Origin: Deltaproteobacteria bacterium
Lineage (GTDB): Bacteria; Desulfobacterota; Binatia; HRBIN30; JACQVA1
NCBI GenBank assembly: GCA_016178705.1
Contig: JACOST010000032.1
Location: 1-64,000 of the forward strand
Reading direction: 5' to 3'
Length of the DNA stretch: 64,000 nt
Every line of letters begins with the position of its first letter. Position 1 is the stretch's first letter. Made by a program: the position numbers and the translations under genes. Of this stretch, positions 7,373-59,602 are shown in pieces. The notes under the pieces are model-generated. The model saw only the letters and a list, made by a program, of their open reading frames with translations, did not search any database and was not told where the DNA came from.

Positions 7373-7515
7373 GTGCCCCCTCGATGCGTCGCCCTTCGAT
7401 ACGAGGCCTTCGGCTTCTACTCCGGACGACTCCTCGGGGAAGCGGTTCCTCTTCACCTACGTTCCACACTCCGTTTGCCCGAGTAGATCGCGAAGCGATC
7501 GTATCGAGGGCCCTT
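7373..7515. repeat. Dispersed palindromic element R7, copy a (full length)
   Basis: About 140 bases built of nested inverted repeats: GCCTTCGGC near the left end, ACTCCTCGGGGAAGCGG against CCGTTTGCCCGAGTAG, and CCCTTCGATACGAGG against CGTATCGAGGG. The same modules in the same order occur reversed at 59473-59602 and partly at 58200-58283. It fills most of the gap between two minus-strand genes. It encodes nothing and looks like a small non-autonomous mobile element. Confidence 0.75.
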
Positions 7516-12636: not shown

Positions 12637-12727
12637 CGATTGTGGATTGCGGATTTGAGATTGCGGATTCGGAATTCGGAGGTGCGCTCCGTCATTCCGC
12701 AATCCGCAATCAACAATCCGCAATCAA
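12637..12727. repeat. Heptad-array inverted repeat R1, copy a
   Basis: Both arms are tandem 7-base units: GATTGTG, GATTGCG, GATTTGA, GATTGCG, GATTCGG on the left and ATTCCGC, AATCCGC, AATCAAC, AATCCGC, AATCAAA on the right, which are reverse complements in the same phase. On the minus strand it starts inside the TGA stop of the flavin oxidoreductase gene (12724-12726) and ends before the antitoxin-like gene. Confidence 0.85.
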
Positions 12728-14712
12728 AGAGTTCGTCCCGCCATGTGGCCGTCGAAGATCGCGCGGTCGGCGAGTCGGACAGCTACGGCGTCCCCGATCC
12801 GTATGACCTCCGGCACCTGATCTTTCAGCGCGAAGTACAACTCGTCGTTGGGTAGGCCGTTGGTGCGAATCACGACCGTATCGACTCGCTCGATCTGCTC
12901 GAGCTGACGCGACAGCGTATCCACTAGCGTGACTGCGTGATCGCCGATCATCCCCAACGCGGTGTTCGGACGCCAGCGCATTCCCGCCCGCACGGCCCGT
13001 GGAAGCGCGTAGCCCATGGTCTCGCGATCGAGATTGATCGGCATCGGTAGCGTGGTCACGACCGTTACGTTCGCGCCCCTGGACGCGAGCAGCTCGCCGA
13101 GTCCGATCGCTTCAATGTGTCCAACCGCATCGAAGATGATGATCCGATCGCCGAGCGTGTCGGCCGCGAGCAGCGCTTGCTCATGATCGATCACGAAATC
13201 TTGCTCCGAGCCGGCCACCGGCATCGGAAAGAACTTTGACGTGCCGAGCTTGGTCGCCCGCCCGCCGGTCGCGACCACAACCGCGTCGGCCTTGAGCGCG
13301 AGCACCGACTCGGCGGTCGCATTGGTGTTGAGCTGGATGTCGACGCCGCGGCGTTCGCACTCGCCGACGCGCCAATCGGCGAAGTCGGCGAGTTCGGCGC
13401 GGCCGGGAAGCTTTTGCGCCAGGCGAATCTTGCCGCCGAGCTGTGCGCTACGTTCCAGCAACGTGACCCGATGCCCGCGCGCCGCCGCCACCCACGCAGC
13501 TTCGAGGCCACCCGGTCCGCCGCCGATCACCACCACGCGCTTCGGCTGCGTGGCGGGACGCAACGTTCCCAACCCGAATTCCGCATCGCGGCCGACGGCC
13601 GGATTCGTCACGCAGGTGATCGGCAGACTCTGCGTGAGGTTGCCATAGCAGCCTTGGTTACTGCCTGTGCATCGCCGGATCGTCTGCGCGGCGCCCGCGC
13701 GTGCCTTGTTCGGCCACTCGGGATCGGCGATCAGCGCGCGCACCAACGTCACCGCATCAGCTTCGCCGCGTTCGAGAATACCTTCCGCTTCGTCCGGCAA
13801 AAGAATGCGGTGCACCGCGAACACCGGCACACGCGGCACCGCTTGCTTCACCTTGTGCGCAGCATAGACACCCAACAGGTGCGGCGCATACATCGGGCGA
13901 ACCATGCCGAGGCCGGAGAGGCCGACGCTGACGTTGAGAAAGTCGACAACGCCGAGCGCGGCGAAGCGCGCCGCGAGATCCGCCGCGTCATCAGCGGTGA
14001 GGCCTTGCTCGTAACTCAACTCTTCGTCGCCAACCAATCGCAGCCCCACCGCGATCTTCGGACCGACTGCATCTCGAACGGCGCGCAGCACTTCGACCGC
14101 GAAGCGCGTGCGGTTCTCGACACTGCCGCCGTACTCGTCGGTGCGCTGATTGCTGCGCGGTGAGAGAAACTCGTGGATAAGGTAGCCGTGCGCGGCATGA
14201 ATCTCGATGCCATCGAAGCCACCGGCCGCGGCGTTGCGAGCCGAGCGCGCGAAGTATTCGACCAGCTCGGTGATCTCGTGACGTTCGAGCATCTTGGGCG
14301 CCTCGGTCGAGTTGACCACGTGCGACGGCGACAGCACCGGCAGCTTCGACCACGCGCCGAAATTGACCCCACCGTTGTGCGCGAGCTGGATGAACGCCAG
14401 CGCACCCTGCCGATGCACGGGTTCGGTCACGCGCGTGAAATGCGGAATCGCCGCTTCGTCCCATGCCGCCGCGTTGTTAGTCATCTGATACGCGGTGCTC
14501 GGATGTACCTGCGTCTGCCCGACGATGATGACACCGGCGCCACCTTGCGCACGGTCGGCGACGTACCGCCCCAGCCTTTCGCCGTGGAAGCCCGGCTCGC
14601 CCCACGTCCGCGACGGCTCGGAGAACATCGTGAAGTGAGCGCCGAACACGATGCGATTGCGTGACTCAACCGGACCGATCTGTAGCGGAGAGAACAAGCG
14701 CGGATACGGCAT
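12724..14712 (-). CDS. Old-Yellow-Enzyme/2,4-dienoyl-CoA reductase-type FMN-FAD oxidoreductase
   Basis: A 662-residue two-domain flavoprotein of the dienoyl-CoA reductase/trimethylamine dehydrogenase class. Residues 1-340 form the FMN barrel (LFSPLQIGPVESRNRIV; GFDGIEIHAAHGYLIHEFLS with the catalytic His region; RSNQRTDEYGGSVENR). A Cys cluster for a 4Fe-4S centre follows, then an FAD/NAD(P) domain from about 380 (RVVVIGGGPGGLEAAW; VVATGG). In the cluster CTGSNQGC the second of the four usual cysteines is Ser, so the iron-sulphur centre may be altered. Substrate could be an enoyl or dienoyl thioester or an N-methyl compound. It is transcribed divergently from the FAD oxidoreductase at 14880. 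Confidence 0.86.
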   Translation of the reverse strand: MPYPRLFSPLQIGPVESRNRIVFGAHFTMFSEPSRTWGEPGFHGERLGRYVADRAQGGAGVIIVGQTQVHPSTAYQMTNNAAAWDEAAIPHFTRVTEPVHRQGALAFIQLAHNGGVNFGAWSKLPVLSPSHVVNSTEAPKMLERHEITELVEYFARSARNAAAGGFDGIEIHAAHGYLIHEFLSPRSNQRTDEYGGSVENRTRFAVEVLRAVRDAVGPKIAVGLRLVGDEELSYEQGLTADDAADLAARFAALGVVDFLNVSVGLSGLGMVRPMYAPHLLGVYAAHKVKQAVPRVPVFAVHRILLPDEAEGILERGEADAVTLVRALIADPEWPNKARAGAAQTIRRCTGSNQGCYGNLTQSLPITCVTNPAVGRDAEFGLGTLRPATQPKRVVVIGGGPGGLEAAWVAAARGHRVTLLERSAQLGGKIRLAQKLPGRAELADFADWRVGECERRGVDIQLNTNATAESVLALKADAVVVATGGRATKLGTSKFFPMPVAGSEQDFVIDHEQALLAADTLGDRIIIFDAVGHIEAIGLGELLASRGANVTVVTTLPMPINLDRETMGYALPRAVRAGMRWRPNTALGMIGDHAVTLVDTLSRQLEQIERVDTVVIRTNGLPNDELYFALKDQVPEVIRIGDAVAVRLADRAIFDGHMAGRTL

Positions 14713-28479: not shown

Positions 28480-29139
28480 GTGGATCTCAAGATTGTCGAT
28501 CAGTTACTCACCACCACGCGCTCGGTGCGCAAGCGTTTGGATTTCCAGCGGCCGGTCGACCTGGCCACTCTGCAGCGTTGCCTCGAAATCGCCATGCAGG
28601 CGCCGACCGGATCGAACAGCCAAGGGTGGCACTTCCTCGTGATCACCGATGCGGCCAAACGCCAAGGCCTCGCCGATCTCTATCGGCGGGCGTTCGACGG
28701 CTATCGCCAGATGTCCGCCGCGTCGCCGCAATTGCAAGAGGGCGATCCGCGCCGCGCGCAAACATTGCGCATCGTCGACTCGGCCAGCTACCTCGCCGAG
28801 CATCTGCACGAAGCACCGGTGATGGTCGTGCCGTGCATCGAAGGTCGGGTCGAGAATGCCGGGGTACTCGCGCAAGCGTCGATCTACGGGTCCATCTTGC
28901 CGGCGGTGTGGTCGTTGATGCTGGCGTTGCGCGCCCGTGGTCTGGGATCAGCGTGGACGACGCTCCATCTCATGTTCGAACAAGACGCCGCCGCGCTGCT
29001 CAACCTGCCGGCGACCATGACGCAAACCGCGCTGCTACCGGTCGCGCACTTCACCGGCACAGACTTCAAACCGGCCAAGCGGCTTCCCGCTAGCAACCAC
29101 ATCCATTGGAATGGCTGGGAACAACGGCGAGGAATTTGA
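28480..29139 (+). CDS. Nitroreductase family protein
   Basis: A 219-residue FMN-dependent NAD(P)H oxidoreductase. The FMN phosphate loop TTRSVRKRLDFQRPVD opens the protein, APTGSNSQGWHFLVI contributes to the isoalloxazine site, and LRARGLGSAWTTLHLMFEQD is the C-terminal family block. The start is GTG at 28480, supported by GAGGAGGGG at the right spacing. It reduces nitro compounds, quinones or enoates in relatives; the true substrate here is open. The stop TGA (29137-29139) is directly followed by a heptad repeat element and then the hydratase gene. Confidence 0.86.
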   Translation: MDLKIVDQLLTTTRSVRKRLDFQRPVDLATLQRCLEIAMQAPTGSNSQGWHFLVITDAAKRQGLADLYRRAFDGYRQMSAASPQLQEGDPRRAQTLRIVDSASYLAEHLHEAPVMVVPCIEGRVENAGVLAQASIYGSILPAVWSLMLALRARGLGSAWTTLHLMFEQDAAALLNLPATMTQTALLPVAHFTGTDFKPAKRLPASNHIHWNGWEQRRGI

Positions 29140-29217
29140 GATTGCGGATTGTCGATTGCGGATTCGTTGATCCGATCCTTCAATCCGCAATCCACAATCC
29201 AAAATCCGCAATCACCA
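29137..29217. repeat. Heptad-array inverted repeat R1, copy b
   Basis: Occupies the whole gap between two genes, from the TGA stop of the nitroreductase to the base before the ATG of the hydratase. The left arm reads GATTGCG, GATTGTC, GATTGCG, GATTCG; the right arm AATCCGC, AATCCAC, AATCCAA, AATCCGC, AATCACC. The arms are in the same 7-base phase and pair as a hairpin. The hydratase has no Shine-Dalgarno because this element fills the space. Confidence 0.88.
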
Positions 29218-30024
29218 ATGGTTCGCTTCGAACTCCTTCCCGATCAGCCGCATGTGGCGCTGGTTACCATCGACCGGCCTGCACGCGGGAACTCGCTCGA
29301 TCCGCCGACGCTCCGTGAGCTGGCCGCCGCATGGCGGCGTATCGCGGACGATCCGGAGATCCGTTGCGCGGTGCTAACCGGCGCCGGTGAGCGCGTCTTC
29401 TGTTCGGGAATGGACATGACGACGACGATCCCCGCGGCCCAACGGCTGGCGCGCGGCGAGCGAGTCGACGACGAAACGTTCGAGGGCTTGCGCAGCGTTG
29501 CCACCGCGCTGCTGGCCGGCTTCGATCTGCAGACACCGCTGGTGTGTGCGATCAACGGCCACGCCCGCGCCGGCGGCTTCGATCTCATGCTCGCATCCGA
29601 GATCCGCTTCGCTGTTCCGCACGCGACCTTTGCGCTCGAAGAGGTCGCGCTCGGCCTCTACCCCACCGGCAATGCCACGGTGCTGTTGCCACGGCAGATC
29701 GGATGGGTGCATGCACACGAGTTGCTGCTCACCGCGCGTCCGATCAATGCGGAGCGGGCGCTGCACATCGGCCTGCTCAACCAGATCGTCGCGCCCAATC
29801 AGCTCCTATCGACTGCCCTCGCCACTGCCGCCATCATCGCGGCCAACGCGCCGCTTGCCGTGCGTGAAACCCGCCGCGGGGTACGTGAGATCCTTCACCT
29901 TTCGCTCGACGATGCCTACCCTCGCCAGGAAGAGCTCGGCCGTCCGCTGCGCCGCAGCGAAGATGCGCGCGAAGCCCAACGCGCGTTCGTCGAGAAGCGC
30001 AAACCCGTTTGGACAGGCAAGTAG
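29218..30024 (+). CDS. Enoyl-CoA hydratase/isomerase family protein
   Basis: A 268-residue crotonase-fold enzyme. The oxyanion-hole segments are GAGERVFCSGMDMT and NGHARAGGFDLMLASEIRFA. The Glu pair used by true hydratases is only partly present (ALEEVALGLYPTGNATVLLP), so the reaction (hydration, isomerisation or hydrolysis) is uncertain. The ATG at 29218 gives the standard N-terminus (VRFELLPDQPHVALVTIDRP). It may be cotranscribed with the nitroreductase through repeat R1b, although that element could also terminate or attenuate. Confidence 0.85.
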   Translation: MVRFELLPDQPHVALVTIDRPARGNSLDPPTLRELAAAWRRIADDPEIRCAVLTGAGERVFCSGMDMTTTIPAAQRLARGERVDDETFEGLRSVATALLAGFDLQTPLVCAINGHARAGGFDLMLASEIRFAVPHATFALEEVALGLYPTGNATVLLPRQIGWVHAHELLLTARPINAERALHIGLLNQIVAPNQLLSTALATAAIIAANAPLAVRETRRGVREILHLSLDDAYPRQEELGRPLRRSEDAREAQRAFVEKRKPVWTGK

Positions 30025-40586: not shown

Positions 40587-40675
<89 letters not shown>

Positions 40676-40721
40676 TTCCCCCGATGCCGATGAGAGAGTA
40701 GAAGTTGGGACGGTGGTCAAC

Positions 40722-40829
40722 AGTGATAGCTAGGTCCCGCGCAAGGGAGCGTCGCGAATCCCGTCAGATCCGGAAGGAAGCAGCGGTACCGACAACCTCT
40801 CTGTGCCGCGGGGAAGCCTAGCTATCTCT
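40722..40829 (+). ncRNA. ffs: Signal recognition particle RNA, small bacterial (4.5S) type
   Basis: The universally conserved core TCAGATCCGGAAGGAAGCAG at 40764-40783 is the asymmetric loop and GGAA tetraloop that bind Ffh. The outer helix GATAGCTAGG (40725-40734) pairs with CCTAGCTATC (40817-40826). The RNA forms the SRP with Ffh. It is placed between tRNA-Ser and dnaX, a widespread bacterial order. Confidence 0.95.
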
Positions 40830-42993: not shown

Positions 42994-43593
42994 ATGGCTA
43001 CGTTTCCCGCGCCGCTGGCGCGCATCATTCAAGAACTCATCAAGCTGCCTGGTGTCGGCGAGAAGACCGCCACGCGGCTGGCCTTTCATCTAATGCGCAC
43101 CGAGCGCGCGTCGGTCGACGCGCTGAGCGCGGCGCTCATCACACTGCGCAACGAAATGCGGTTGTGTTCGGTGTGCTACGCGTTCACCGCGCAGGACCCG
43201 TGCGCCACGTGCAGCGATCCGGCGCGCAACAGCGAACAGATCTGCGTCGTCGAAGGTCCGGCCGACGTCATCGCCGTCGACAAGTCGGGCCAATTTCGCG
43301 GCCGCTACCACGTCTTGCACGGCTCGCTTGCGCCGCTCGACGGGATCGGTCCGGAGCACCTCCGCGTCGCCGAATTGCTGCACCGTTTGCGCGACGGCGT
43401 GGTGCGCGAAGTGATTCTCGCCACGAATCCAACCGTCGAGGGCGAGGCGACGGCGATGTACGTCGCCAAGCTGATCAAGCCACTCGGCGTCCGTGTCACC
43501 CGCATCGCCCACGGTCTCCCCATGGGCGCCGACGTGGAGTACGCTGACATGATGACGTTGGGCAAAGCGCTGGAGGGGCGCCGAGAGATGTGA
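42994..43593 (+). CDS. recR: Recombination mediator protein RecR
   Basis: A 199-residue protein that acts with RecO (and RecF) in loading RecA at gapped DNA. The helix-hairpin-helix LIKLPGVGEKTATRLAFHL is followed by a zinc finger (CSVCYAFTAQDPCATC) and a Toprim domain (ICVVEGPADVIAVDKSG, VLHGSLAPLDGIGPEHL). Length is normal. The TGA stop at 43591-43593 is the first triplet of inverted repeat R2, which reaches into the convergent MFS gene. Confidence 0.95.
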   Translation: MATFPAPLARIIQELIKLPGVGEKTATRLAFHLMRTERASVDALSAALITLRNEMRLCSVCYAFTAQDPCATCSDPARNSEQICVVEGPADVIAVDKSGQFRGRYHVLHGSLAPLDGIGPEHLRVAELLHRLRDGVVREVILATNPTVEGEATAMYVAKLIKPLGVRVTRIAHGLPMGADVEYADMMTLGKALEGRREM

Positions 43594-43696
43594 GTTCGTG
43601 ACTCGTGATTCGTGAGTCGAAGCTGCAAGCGCGGAATCGGGCTCCTCTTCACGCCTCACGATTCACGCGTCACGGCTCACACGTCACGACTCACGA
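43591..43696. repeat. Heptad-array inverted repeat R2 bridging two convergent stop codons
   Basis: The left arm starts in the recR stop: TGAGTTC, GTGACTC, GTGATTC, GTGAGTC. The right arm reads CACGCCT, CACGATT, CACGCGT, CACGGCT, CACACGT, CACGACT, CACGATG. Units are seven bases and the arms are reverse complements. The stop of the convergent MFS gene (TGA on the minus strand, 43684-43686) is inside the right arm. It could act as a two-way transcription terminator. Confidence 0.85.
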
Positions 43697-48309: not shown

Positions 48310-48471
48310 AAGTCCTCCAACGCGAAGTCGCAAAGACGCGAAGGCGGAAAGCGAGTATTCTGTGACGAGACTTCATTTCTCTGAAGGCCGTTCAGTGGTA
48401 TTCGTTCGTGCCGACCGATCGGACTAAAGCCCTTGCGCCTCTGCGCCTTGGCGACTTTGCGTTAAGTTCTT
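48310..48471. repeat. Octad-array inverted repeat R4
   Basis: The left arm (48318-48350) has GCGAAGTC, GCAAAGAC, GCGAAGGC; the right arm (48430-48466) has CTTGCGCC, TCTGCGCC, TTGGCGAC, TTTGCGTT. Units are eight bases and the arms are reverse complements, separated by about 80 bases of unrelated sequence. It fills the gap between the small secreted protein and the lipoprotein gene. Confidence 0.82.
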
Positions 48472-50437: not shown

Positions 50438-50851
50438 TCACCCGTCCGCGAGCGGTTGCAACCGCGGTGGCTGACGCACAAATGTCTCCGCGTCAAACGT
50501 CCCGCTGCGGATCGTGTCGATGTCGGCGCGCACCCGGTCGCGCAACGCCGCGAGGTTGATCCCGCCAGCGTCGCCGGCGAATGGCGCCGTCTTTTGCAGT
50601 CCGCTGTCGAGCATCCGAAGCGCGCCACTCCATAACTGCTGCGTCGTCTTGTGATAGCCGACTGCAATCTGGATCAGTCCAGTGAACAGTTCCCACAGAT
50701 CGTCCGGGACATCGTCGAGCCCTGCTTCGAGAACTTCGTGCGCCTCGAAGTAGCGCCCGGCGTTAAACTCCCGTGCCGCGTCAATGATCGCACTCCGAGT
50801 CCCCAATTCCGCAATCCCCAATCCGCACTCCGCAATCGAGCCATTCCGCAT
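50438..50851 (-). CDS. DUF309 family protein whose 5' end is embedded in a heptad repeat
   Basis: A protein of about 137 residues with the DUF309 core IIDAAREFNAGRYFEAHEVL, LWELFTGLIQIAVGYHKTTQ and ALRMLDSGLQ, a helical fold of unknown function. Everything before SAIIDAA is translated repeat R1c (RNGSIAECGLGIAEL), so the original start is lost or replaced. Candidates in frame are TTG 50893, ATG 50851 and TTG 50806. It is convergent with the MFS gene (six bases apart) and follows the aldo/keto reductase on the same strand. Confidence 0.7.
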   Translation of the reverse strand: MRNGSIAECGLGIAELGTRSAIIDAAREFNAGRYFEAHEVLEAGLDDVPDDLWELFTGLIQIAVGYHKTTQQLWSGALRMLDSGLQKTAPFAGDAGGINLAALRDRVRADIDTIRSGTFDAETFVRQPPRLQPLADG

Positions 50852-50902
50852 TTCACATTCGCCATTCCGCAATCGCCATTCCGCATTCCGCAATCGGAAT
50901 CA
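50791..50902. repeat. Heptad array R1, copy c (one orientation)
   Basis: About fifteen 7-base units on the minus strand: GATTGCG, GAATGCG, GAATGGC, GATTGCG, GAATGGC, GAATGTG and so on. No opposite arm is present. It starts in the TGA stop of the aldo/keto reductase (50900-50902) and runs into the DUF309 coding region. Confidence 0.85.
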
Positions 50903-51916
50903 TCCCATCGGATAGCGGATTTCCTTCGACACCTTGTTGCACTGATCGAGCACGTCGGGCGTGAGCGTGACATCCGCGGCGGCGAGCGTGTCGGTGAGTT
51001 GCTCGACCGTGGTGGCGCCGATGATGGTGGAGCCGACAAAGTTGTGAATCAACGACCACGCCGTTGCCAGCGTCGTAACTGACATGCCCGCCTGTTGCGC
51101 GATCGCCATGAAGCGCGCGGTCGAGCTCAGCGTCTGCTCATTGACGAAGCGGCGGGTCATCGATTGCGAGCGCGGATTGCCTTCGCCGTAGTTGGTGAAG
51201 CGCGAGCCCTTGGGTCGCGCGCCGTCTTGATACTTGCCGCTCAGCACACCGCCGGCGATCGGGCTGTAGGGCAGCAGGCTGATCTGTTCGCGCCGACACG
51301 CTTCTGCAAGTTCGTCCTCGAAGCGTCGGTTGAGCAGGCTGAAGTTATTTTGAATCGTTTCGTAGCGAACCGAGCCGTTCTTGTCGCTCGACCACAAACT
51401 CTTGGTAAGGCCGTACGCGGTCTCGTTGCTGCATCCGACGTAGCGGACCTTGCCGGCTTCGACCAAGCGCGTGAGCGCGGTCATCGTCTCGTCGATCGGC
51501 AGATCGCGGTCGGGCCAATGCGTTTGATAGAGATCGATGTAATCGGTCCGCAATCGTCGCAGGCTAGCTTCAACCGCGCGCTCGATGTGATGGCGATCGA
51601 GCGCGGTCTTGCCGCTGCGTTGCGGCGCGAGGAACCACCCCATCCCCGGCCCTGCCACCTTGGTTGCGATGAACACCGCATCGCGCGACTTGCCGGCCAT
51701 CCATTTTCCGCAGATCTCTTCGCTGCGACCGGCGTACTTCGGATCCGGCGGCACCGGATAGGTTTCCGCGATGTCGAGGAAGTCGACGCCCGCGTCCCAC
51801 GCGCGATCGAGGATGGCGAAGCTCGTGCGCTCGTCGGCCTGATTGCCGAACGTCATCGTACCCATGCAGATCTCGGAAACCACCAGGCCGGTGCGGCCCA
51901 ACCGCCGACGCTTCAT
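50900..51916 (-). CDS. Aldo/keto reductase
   Basis: A 338-residue NADPH-dependent reductase of the TIM-barrel AKR superfamily. The catalytic tetrad is visible: Asp in DFLDIAE, Tyr in the following TYP, Lys in FIATKVAG and His in DLYQTHWPD. LGRTGLVVSEICMGTMTFGN is the typical opening and RYVGCSNETAYGL lies in the core. AGGAGAG precedes the ATG. The first 45 codons and the upstream 44 bases are duplicated at 52652-52831. Confidence 0.9.
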   Translation of the reverse strand: MKRRRLGRTGLVVSEICMGTMTFGNQADERTSFAILDRAWDAGVDFLDIAETYPVPPDPKYAGRSEEICGKWMAGKSRDAVFIATKVAGPGMGWFLAPQRSGKTALDRHHIERAVEASLRRLRTDYIDLYQTHWPDRDLPIDETMTALTRLVEAGKVRYVGCSNETAYGLTKSLWSSDKNGSVRYETIQNNFSLLNRRFEDELAEACRREQISLLPYSPIAGGVLSGKYQDGARPKGSRFTNYGEGNPRSQSMTRRFVNEQTLSSTARFMAIAQQAGMSVTTLATAWSLIHNFVGSTIIGATTVEQLTDTLAAADVTLTPDVLDQCNKVSKEIRYPMG

Positions 51917-51960
51917 GTTCGCTCTCCTCCCAAATGTCGTGCGCGCGGATCATAGCAGGA
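51781..51960. repeat. 180-base direct duplication, copy 1
   Basis: Covers the leader and first 45 codons of the intact aldo/keto reductase gene. It aligns without gaps to 52652-52831 with ten mismatches (about 94% identity). The two copies bracket the DUF433-DUF5615 pair. Confidence 0.92.
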
Positions 51961-51973
51961 GTCGCCCGACGGG

Positions 51974-52651: not shown

Positions 52652-52787
52652 AGTCGACGCCCGCGTCCCACGCGCGATCGAGAATCGCGAAGCTCGTGCG
52701 CTCGTCGGCCTGATTGCCGAACGTCATCGTCCCCATGCAGATCTCCGAAACTACCAGGCCAGTCCCGCCCAACCGCCGACGCTTCAT
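52652..52787 (-). pseudogene. 5' fragment of an aldo/keto reductase gene
   Basis: From the ATG at 52787 it encodes KRRRLGGTGLVVSEICMGTM and continues to DRAWDAGVD, matching the first 45 residues of the intact reductase at 51916, then turns into unrelated sequence. It keeps the Shine-Dalgarno and leader, so the former promoter may now drive the DUF433-DUF5615 pair downstream. Confidence 0.85.
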
Positions 52788-52831
52788 GTTCGCTCTCCTC
52801 CCCAATGTCGTGCGGGCGGATCATAGCAGGA
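52652..52831. repeat. 180-base direct duplication, copy 2
   Basis: Second copy of the segment at 51781-51960, with ten substitutions and no gaps. Similarity begins at AGTCGACGCC and ends at CATAGCAGGA in both copies. Confidence 0.92.
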
Positions 52832-52902
52832 GCCGTACGGCGGGAAAGGGGGCGATACGGTCGTGGTGTTCTTGATCCGATACCTCAGGGCAACGCGAGC
52901 GC

Positions 52903-58136: not shown

Positions 58137-58199
58137 CTTGCGTAGTTTCGTACCAGCGTGCGAAGCGGATGTCGACGGCAGCACCGCGCATGGCCGCAG

Positions 58200-58283
58200 T
58201 GCCCCTCGATACGCCCCCCCTCGATACGAAGCCTTCGGCTTCTACTCGGTGTGGCTACTCGGGGAAGCGGTGGTTGGTTTCAC
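58200..58283. repeat. Palindromic element R7, copy b (left part)
   Basis: GCCCCTCGATACG, CTCGATACGAAGCC, TTCGGCTTCTACTC and GGCTACTCGGGGAAGCGG occur in the same order as in the full copies at 7373 and 59473; the right-hand part is missing or diverged. It lies downstream of the Rieske gene, inverted relative to copy c upstream of it. Confidence 0.75.
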
Positions 58284-59440: not shown

Positions 59441-59472
59441 CGCGTCATCGAGTTTTGCACAAGCCGGCGCTC

Positions 59473-59602
59473 CATACGATCGCTTCGCGATCTACTCGGG
59501 CAAACGGATATTGATCCCGTGAGAAACAACCGTTTCCCCGAGTAGCGGCACAGAGTAGAAGCCGAAGGCTTCGTATCGAAGGGCCGCGTATCGAGGGGCA
59601 CG
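59473..59602. repeat. Palindromic element R7, copy c (full length, reversed)
   Basis: Reverse complement of copy a at 7373: CGATCGCTTCGCGATCTACT, GGGCAAACGG, CCGTTTCCCCGAGTAG, GAGTAGAAGCC, GAAGGCTTCGTATCG, CGTATCGAGGGGCAC. The middle is variable. It lies between the Rieske gene start and the end of the ten-domain protein gene. Confidence 0.8.

Follow-up and report, generated by a model that had tools for sequence, protein, structure and literature searches.

Tandem repeats with a 7-nt unit have been described in several bacterial groups, and the closest to those analysed here are the GGGAATC and GGGGA(C/T)T heptads of Xanthomonas and Nostoc, which are intergenic, form inverted pairs in some cases, and vary in length between related strains (PMC4692102). 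They lie on the coding strand near or overlapping stop codons and on the noncoding strand near starts, and are rare between divergent genes (PMC4692102). The parts of the Geobacter metallireducens report used here describe several families of paired tandem octa- or heptanucleotides in intergenic regions, with the two members on opposite strands and a variable spacing (PMC2700814). In marine Beggiatoaceae, intergenic TAACTGA arrays cover the place of the Shine-Dalgarno (SD) sequence, and some overlap upstream stops (PMC4679880). The REPs of Escherichia coli are dispersed extragenic palindromes, some of which lie no more than 15 nt from a stop codon (PMC12306157).

The genome studied here (G000) shares with Xanthomonas and Nostoc the occurrence of 7-nt tandem units at many intergenic sites, with 97 lag-7 repeat segments in 864 kb compared to 0 to 8 at lags 4, 5, 8, 10, and 11. 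Its arm polarity, + after stops and - before starts, is the rule reported for those heptads (PMC4692102). It differs from them in having several unrelated units and composites of two families, and in that distances were determined at the base level with a control for gap length. The G-quadruplex unit of the Xanthomonas/Nostoc repeats, with runs of three or four G, was not found in GATTGCG, which has only GG, or in GTGAGTC, which has no G run; GGGGTTA is the only unit of that type among the seven families modelled in G000. We file the G000 repeats with the heptameric intergenic repeats of the Xanthomonas/Nostoc type, as a variant.

The resemblance to G. metallireducens lies in the multiple families of short, paired, tandem intergenic units, as far as the parts of that report used here describe them (PMC2700814); there the repeats are interpreted as binding sites of a global regulator, their consensus units differ from those of G000, and those parts hold no stop-codon analysis. 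The Beggiatoaceae arrays consist of one unit, nearly always in direct repeats and just before starts, whereas the G000 heptads follow stops. A REP is a unique palindrome of some 20 to 40 nt with a RAYT partner. The G000 elements share with REPs and REPINs the form of a dispersed extragenic palindrome but consist of heptad arrays, and no Y1_Tnp link was found: the genome yielded six Y1_Tnp hits, and the best five of the six had no heptads within 1.5 kb, which leaves an identity as RAYT-linked REPINs unsupported.

The nitroreductase-hydratase junction and its sister elements

In the window, i.e., the whole 64,000-nt stretch of DNA that was analysed, the gap of 78 nt between a nitroreductase-family gene and an enoyl-CoA hydratase-like gene (29140-29217) is filled from stop to start by a GATTGCG-heptad hairpin, R1b, with a folding energy of -33 kcal/mol and a z of -5.2 on strand folding (Table 1). 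Our own gene calls agree with the sequence-only reading that R1b begins at the TGA of the nitroreductase and ends at the ATG of the hydratase, the whole gap being element, and its coordinates were correct. Its claim that the hydratase has no SD is likewise true by sequence, as inspection upstream of the ATG at 29218 found none. The nitroreductase homologues are 64 to 71% identical and terminate at nearly the same position, a few residues apart at most; the nearest named relatives are MAGs that bear the label Deltaproteobacteria and are probably close to the candidate phylum Binatota. The hydratase frame stays open upstream as far as a TTG at 29149, within the left arm of R1b; the homologues align from residues 2 to 3, and the ATG at 29218 is therefore a credible start.

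Table 1. Features of the nitroreductase-hydratase junction and related elements in the window
Feature	Position	Strand	Basis or remark
R1a, GATTGCG family, hairpin -51.7 kcal/mol	12638..12726	-	starts in TGA stop 12726-12724 of minus-strand gene 12724-14712
Nitroreductase-family gene	28480..29139	+	gene call; upstream of R1b; stop TGA = 29137-29139
R1b left (+) arm, GATTGCG GATTGTC GATTGCG GATT	29140..29164	+	sequence, heptad HMM
R1b loop, ~17 nt, not clearly heptad	29165..29181		sequence, fold
R1b right (-) arm, AATCCGC AATCCAC AATCCAA AATCCGC AATC	29182..29213	-	sequence; pairs with left arm
ACCA separating R1b right arm from start codon	29214..29217		sequence
Enoyl-CoA hydratase-like gene, ATG 29218	29218..30024	+	gene call; downstream of R1b
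R2, unit GTGANTC, layout as R1b	43591..43696	+	starts at TGA 43591-43593
R1c, GATTGCG family, single arm	50789..50902	-	starts in TGA stop 50902-50900 of gene 50900-51916

The test for an intrinsic terminator at R1b was negative, as the hairpin is followed by ACCAATGG with no U-tract and there is no terminator-like site at the element; nor was a promoter found there. A search of the whole window against Rfam 15 returned only the SRP RNA and a tRNA above the gathering score, with no match to R1b. At 40587-40826, a tRNA gene is followed by a small SRP RNA gene.

The claim that copies a (12724) and c (50900) and R2 (43591) start in TGA stops was confirmed by the gene calls. R1c does not form a hairpin (z of -0.9 on folding), and R2 sits between convergent genes, the stop of the second falling within its right arm. 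A further element, R3, for which the sequence-only reading gave no position, had been put two bases after a TGA; this was not confirmed, the octad repeat at 48320-48462 having no TGA two bases before it. That repeat, ACGCGAAG TCGCAAAG ... CTTTGCGTT, has a period of 8 and a layout like that of R1b and lies in the gap before 48507. Another dispersed palindrome, of the CCCTCGATACGAAGCCTTCGGCTTCTACTCGG type, is present at 7377-7512, 58199-58275, and 59466-59601 in inverted copies up to 95% complementary, and a direct repeat of 193 nt with 93% identity is found at 51781-51973 and 52652-52844, 871 nt apart.

Heptad families in the genome and in its relatives

The 15-mer CCGCAATCCGCAATC, with at most one mismatch, had 61 matches in the 6.1-Mb genome, while the reversed control had none. 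Forty stretches of 20 kb, nearly all of them around heptad copies, were sampled; their genes were called and the arrays were delimited by a cyclic HMM. They contained 50 GATTGCG/GAATGCG elements, 8 inside genes and 42 at intergenic sites, the stretches having been picked by heptad sequence and not by gene position. At least seven unrelated unit families were recognised (GATTGCG/GAATGCG/GAGTGCG, GTGANTC, GGCAGTA, GGGGTTA, GGACTTT, GGCTGAT, and TCTGGTT), and the lag-7 excess was also seen in three relatives, built of still other units.

All 23 two-arm elements of a single family folded below a z of -3; nine composites, with arms from different families, formed no hairpin (median z, -0.1). Composites with a + arm of one family and a - arm of another lie at L055 4695-4802, L063 2252-2332, L067 18046-18118, L069 5041-5103, and L049 14724-14910. 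Of 34 multi-arm gaps, 32 had the arms in the order + then -, among them the gaps of eight of the nine nonfolding composites. Beside stops, single and composite arms were + in 25 cases and - in 9, and beside starts - in 14 and + in 6. Three right arms form in-frame parts of the N-terminal coding sequence of a gene whose start codon lies in the loop: those of trmFO (L068 9981-10040), MeaB (L043 9900-9990), and a GH13 glycoside hydrolase (L060 10028-10085). The loops can therefore be host sequence, which suggests that the arms formed separately. The G000 copies have no common flanks and differ heptad by heptad, and as such do not appear to point to insertion as a unit; a search for a transposase or terminal sequence tied to them found none.

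In relatives, both genes of the R1b junction are intact, and the gap between them is an ATGA overlap in G021 and 9 nt in G041; in G013 it is occupied, straight after the TAG, by different heptads (GATTTGA and GATTGTT) arrayed over 80 nt in a hairpin-like form. At the topA-trmFO junction, the heptads are GAATGCG in G000 and of other units in G008 and G009, and those of G001, a relative in the same family, are GATTGCG and start immediately behind the TGA; the gap is 8 nt in G007 and G012. Between methylmalonyl-CoA mutase and MeaB, GATTGCG is present in G000 and GGGGTTA, from stop to start, in G013, with none in eight other relatives. At the topA-trmFO, mutase-MeaB, and mutase N/C gaps, the C-termini align to the last residues with relatives that have no element or one of another family. 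Of 36 orthologous gaps in the relatives, 5 contained heptads, whether of the G000 family or of a different one, compared to base rates of about 2 to 6% of gaps, which is suggestive with regard to inheritance of the site as opposed to independent arrival.

A relative of the same order, G012, has 48 exact 18-mer matches. Its element is about 140 nt long and near-identical among the 17 copies fetched and aligned (L213-L229), reading CTGAG[C/T]TACTAGTTCGCGAG..., a heptad hairpin, and GGGTTGCGGGCGAAGCCCGCGCTGAG, with a hairpin core of 67, 74, or 81 nt and conserved non-heptad flanks. TGA stands at the left end of 9 of the 17 copies, and in four it terminates the gene upstream (trpB, nuoH, a gamma-glutamyltransferase-like gene, and atpB, named from their sequences and not from a database). 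Elements occupy the trpB-trpA, nuoH-nuoI, and atpB-atpE junctions and are joined exactly to the native TGA of trpB, nuoH, and atpB; the equivalent gaps of relatives measure -4 to 47 nt (trpB-trpA) and 15 to 39 nt (nuoH-nuoI), and the C-termini correspond. Judged from these alignments, the clearest evidence that heptad hairpins are able to insert exactly at native stops comes from the G012 copies. As a dispersed, near-identical element with conserved ends, the G012 element resembles bacterial MITEs, but the comparison gave neither a terminal inverted repeat or target duplication common to the copies nor a parent transposase: the target duplication differs between copies, with matches in L219 (CTGCG/CTGCG), L223, L225, and L226 and not in the others, and only some copies carry CTGAG at their two ends. 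The G000 copies, put to the same comparison with MITEs, have no shared flanks.

Contact with stop codons

An edge within -6 to +3 nt of a stop was found for 24 of the 42 intergenic GATTGCG/GAATGCG elements, while only 1.65% of random intergenic points lie 0 to 3 nt after a stop. The preference for stop-codon junctions proposed by the sequence-only reading turned out to be genome-wide, the 42 copies not being scattered without preference. Stop usage in the sampled genome is 59% TGA, 29% TAG, and 12% TAA. The 27 stop-abutting edges comprised 24 TGA and 3 TAG, and the array, with units that begin with GA, overlaps the TGA in 16 cases; the 11 stops entirely outside the array were 8 TGA and 3 TAG, against 59% TGA genome-wide. 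At array ends away from stops, T preceded GA in only 4 of 17, which gives no support to TGA as a target motif in G000. As for the earlier proposal of targeting of, or selection for, stop junctions, the preference thus stands, a simple targeting of TGA in G000 does not (3 of the 11 outside stops being TAG), and either targeting or selection may be responsible. The G012 elements that end in TGA at the native stops of trpB, nuoH, and atpB are the best support for targeting.

Heptads, irrespective of family, occur in 52 codirectional gaps, and in 25 of these the array begins -6 to +3 nt from the stop; random placement in the native bases gives an expectation of 11.7, which rises to 21 when the 15 nt before the start are excluded and to 29 when 40 nt are, a test that depends on a simple gene caller and an assumed start-side exclusion. 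In the gaps with at least 40 native nt, 6 of 25 lie at -6 to +3, with 0.69, 0.86, and 2.2 expected for no, 15-nt, and 40-nt exclusion, respectively (P values of 5e-5, 1e-4, and 0.003). Tiny native gaps and avoidance of the SD account for much of the stop contact, and the stop-side excess persists in long gaps.

Origin and placement of R1b

We lean toward the explanation, which we consider somewhat probable, that R1b is a copy of a dispersed, noncoding class of heptad repeats that entered a short junction, its location reflecting passive placement together with a stop-side preference and a strand polarity. Members of this class would consist of a G-rich + arm, a loop, and a complementary - arm; they probably spread as small non-autonomous or REP/MITE-like DNA and afterwards may change by gaining, losing, or substituting 7-nt units. 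Judging from the relatives, R1b would have entered a stop-start junction of about 0 to 9 nt, in which the only harmless point may be immediately behind the stop, ahead of the ribosome-binding site of the next gene, so that the element would come to abut both genes. Beyond this passive effect, the stop-side preference in long gaps and the polarity, with the + arm on the coding strand after the stop and the - arm before the start, could reflect, to judge by the recent copies in G012, an insertion or copying process with a preference for stop-codon/SD junctions (CTGAG, for example). In the mRNA, the R1b hairpin would begin at the base after the UGA and draw the stop and start codons together; the cell probably tolerates it without needing it.

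Insertion could instead be random, with stop contact arising only from tiny operon gaps and the removal of hits to genes, SD sequences, and promoters. This would fit the native residue of 0 to 40 nt in most element-bearing codirectional gaps, the corresponding gaps in relatives, which are often below 50 nt, and the disappearance of the overall stop excess under the 40-nt start-side exclusion, which also counts against the explanation that we prefer. Since it leaves aside the 6 of 25 elements in long gaps, the polarity of the arms, and the left-end TGA at 9 of 17 G012 sites, we regard it as unlikely. Local expansion of the heptads by slippage or template switching, until a coding constraint halts the array, is a comparably doubtful proposal: heptad number does vary among otherwise identical G012 copies, in trmFO, MeaB, and the GH13 gene arms stand on either side of the host SD and start codon, and gaps are filled on both sides, but the recurrence of a few units at tens of loci needs dispersal, and the G012 elements have conserved non-heptad flanks. 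The polarity without pairing seen in the composites is not accounted for by a simple palindromic insert, which counts against the preferred explanation. In a further reading, which we consider unlikely, interchangeable heptad arms of many units would spread by recognising gene ends and insert at stop/SD junctions with a fixed polarity (+ behind the stop, - ahead of the start) independent of any hairpin, essential operons absorbing them undamaged.

The strong folding of all the two-arm elements, together with the report that E. coli REPs near stops stall ribosomes (PMC12306157), would be expected of a selected 3'-end element whose post-stop hairpin stabilises mRNA, terminates transcription, or slows translation termination. 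Such a role is rather improbable, as nonfolding composites occupy equivalent places and the element is absent from the orthologous junctions of most relatives; termination in particular is opposed by the sites inside operons needing coexpression (mutase N/C, trpBA, and nuoHI) and by the missing U-tract. Least credible, and very improbable, is that insertion truncates a gene and the repeat provides the TGA. The overlap of stop and array at 16 of 27 edges and the stops contained in the units GTGAGTC and GGCAGTA would agree with it, but perfect GATTGCG, GAATGCG, and GAGTGCG arrays are stop-free in every frame and the upstream proteins that were tested have their native C-terminal ends; for the GATTGCG family, it was rejected on both counts at the tested junctions.

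Cyanobacteria, Xanthomonas, Geobacter, and Beggiatoaceae are known to carry heptameric repeats, whose 7-nt period, polarity, and contact with gene ends are without an accepted explanation. The finding of at least seven families under one placement rule, of unpaired composites that keep the polarity, and of a burst in G012 at the stops of trpB, nuoH, and atpB makes the question testable.
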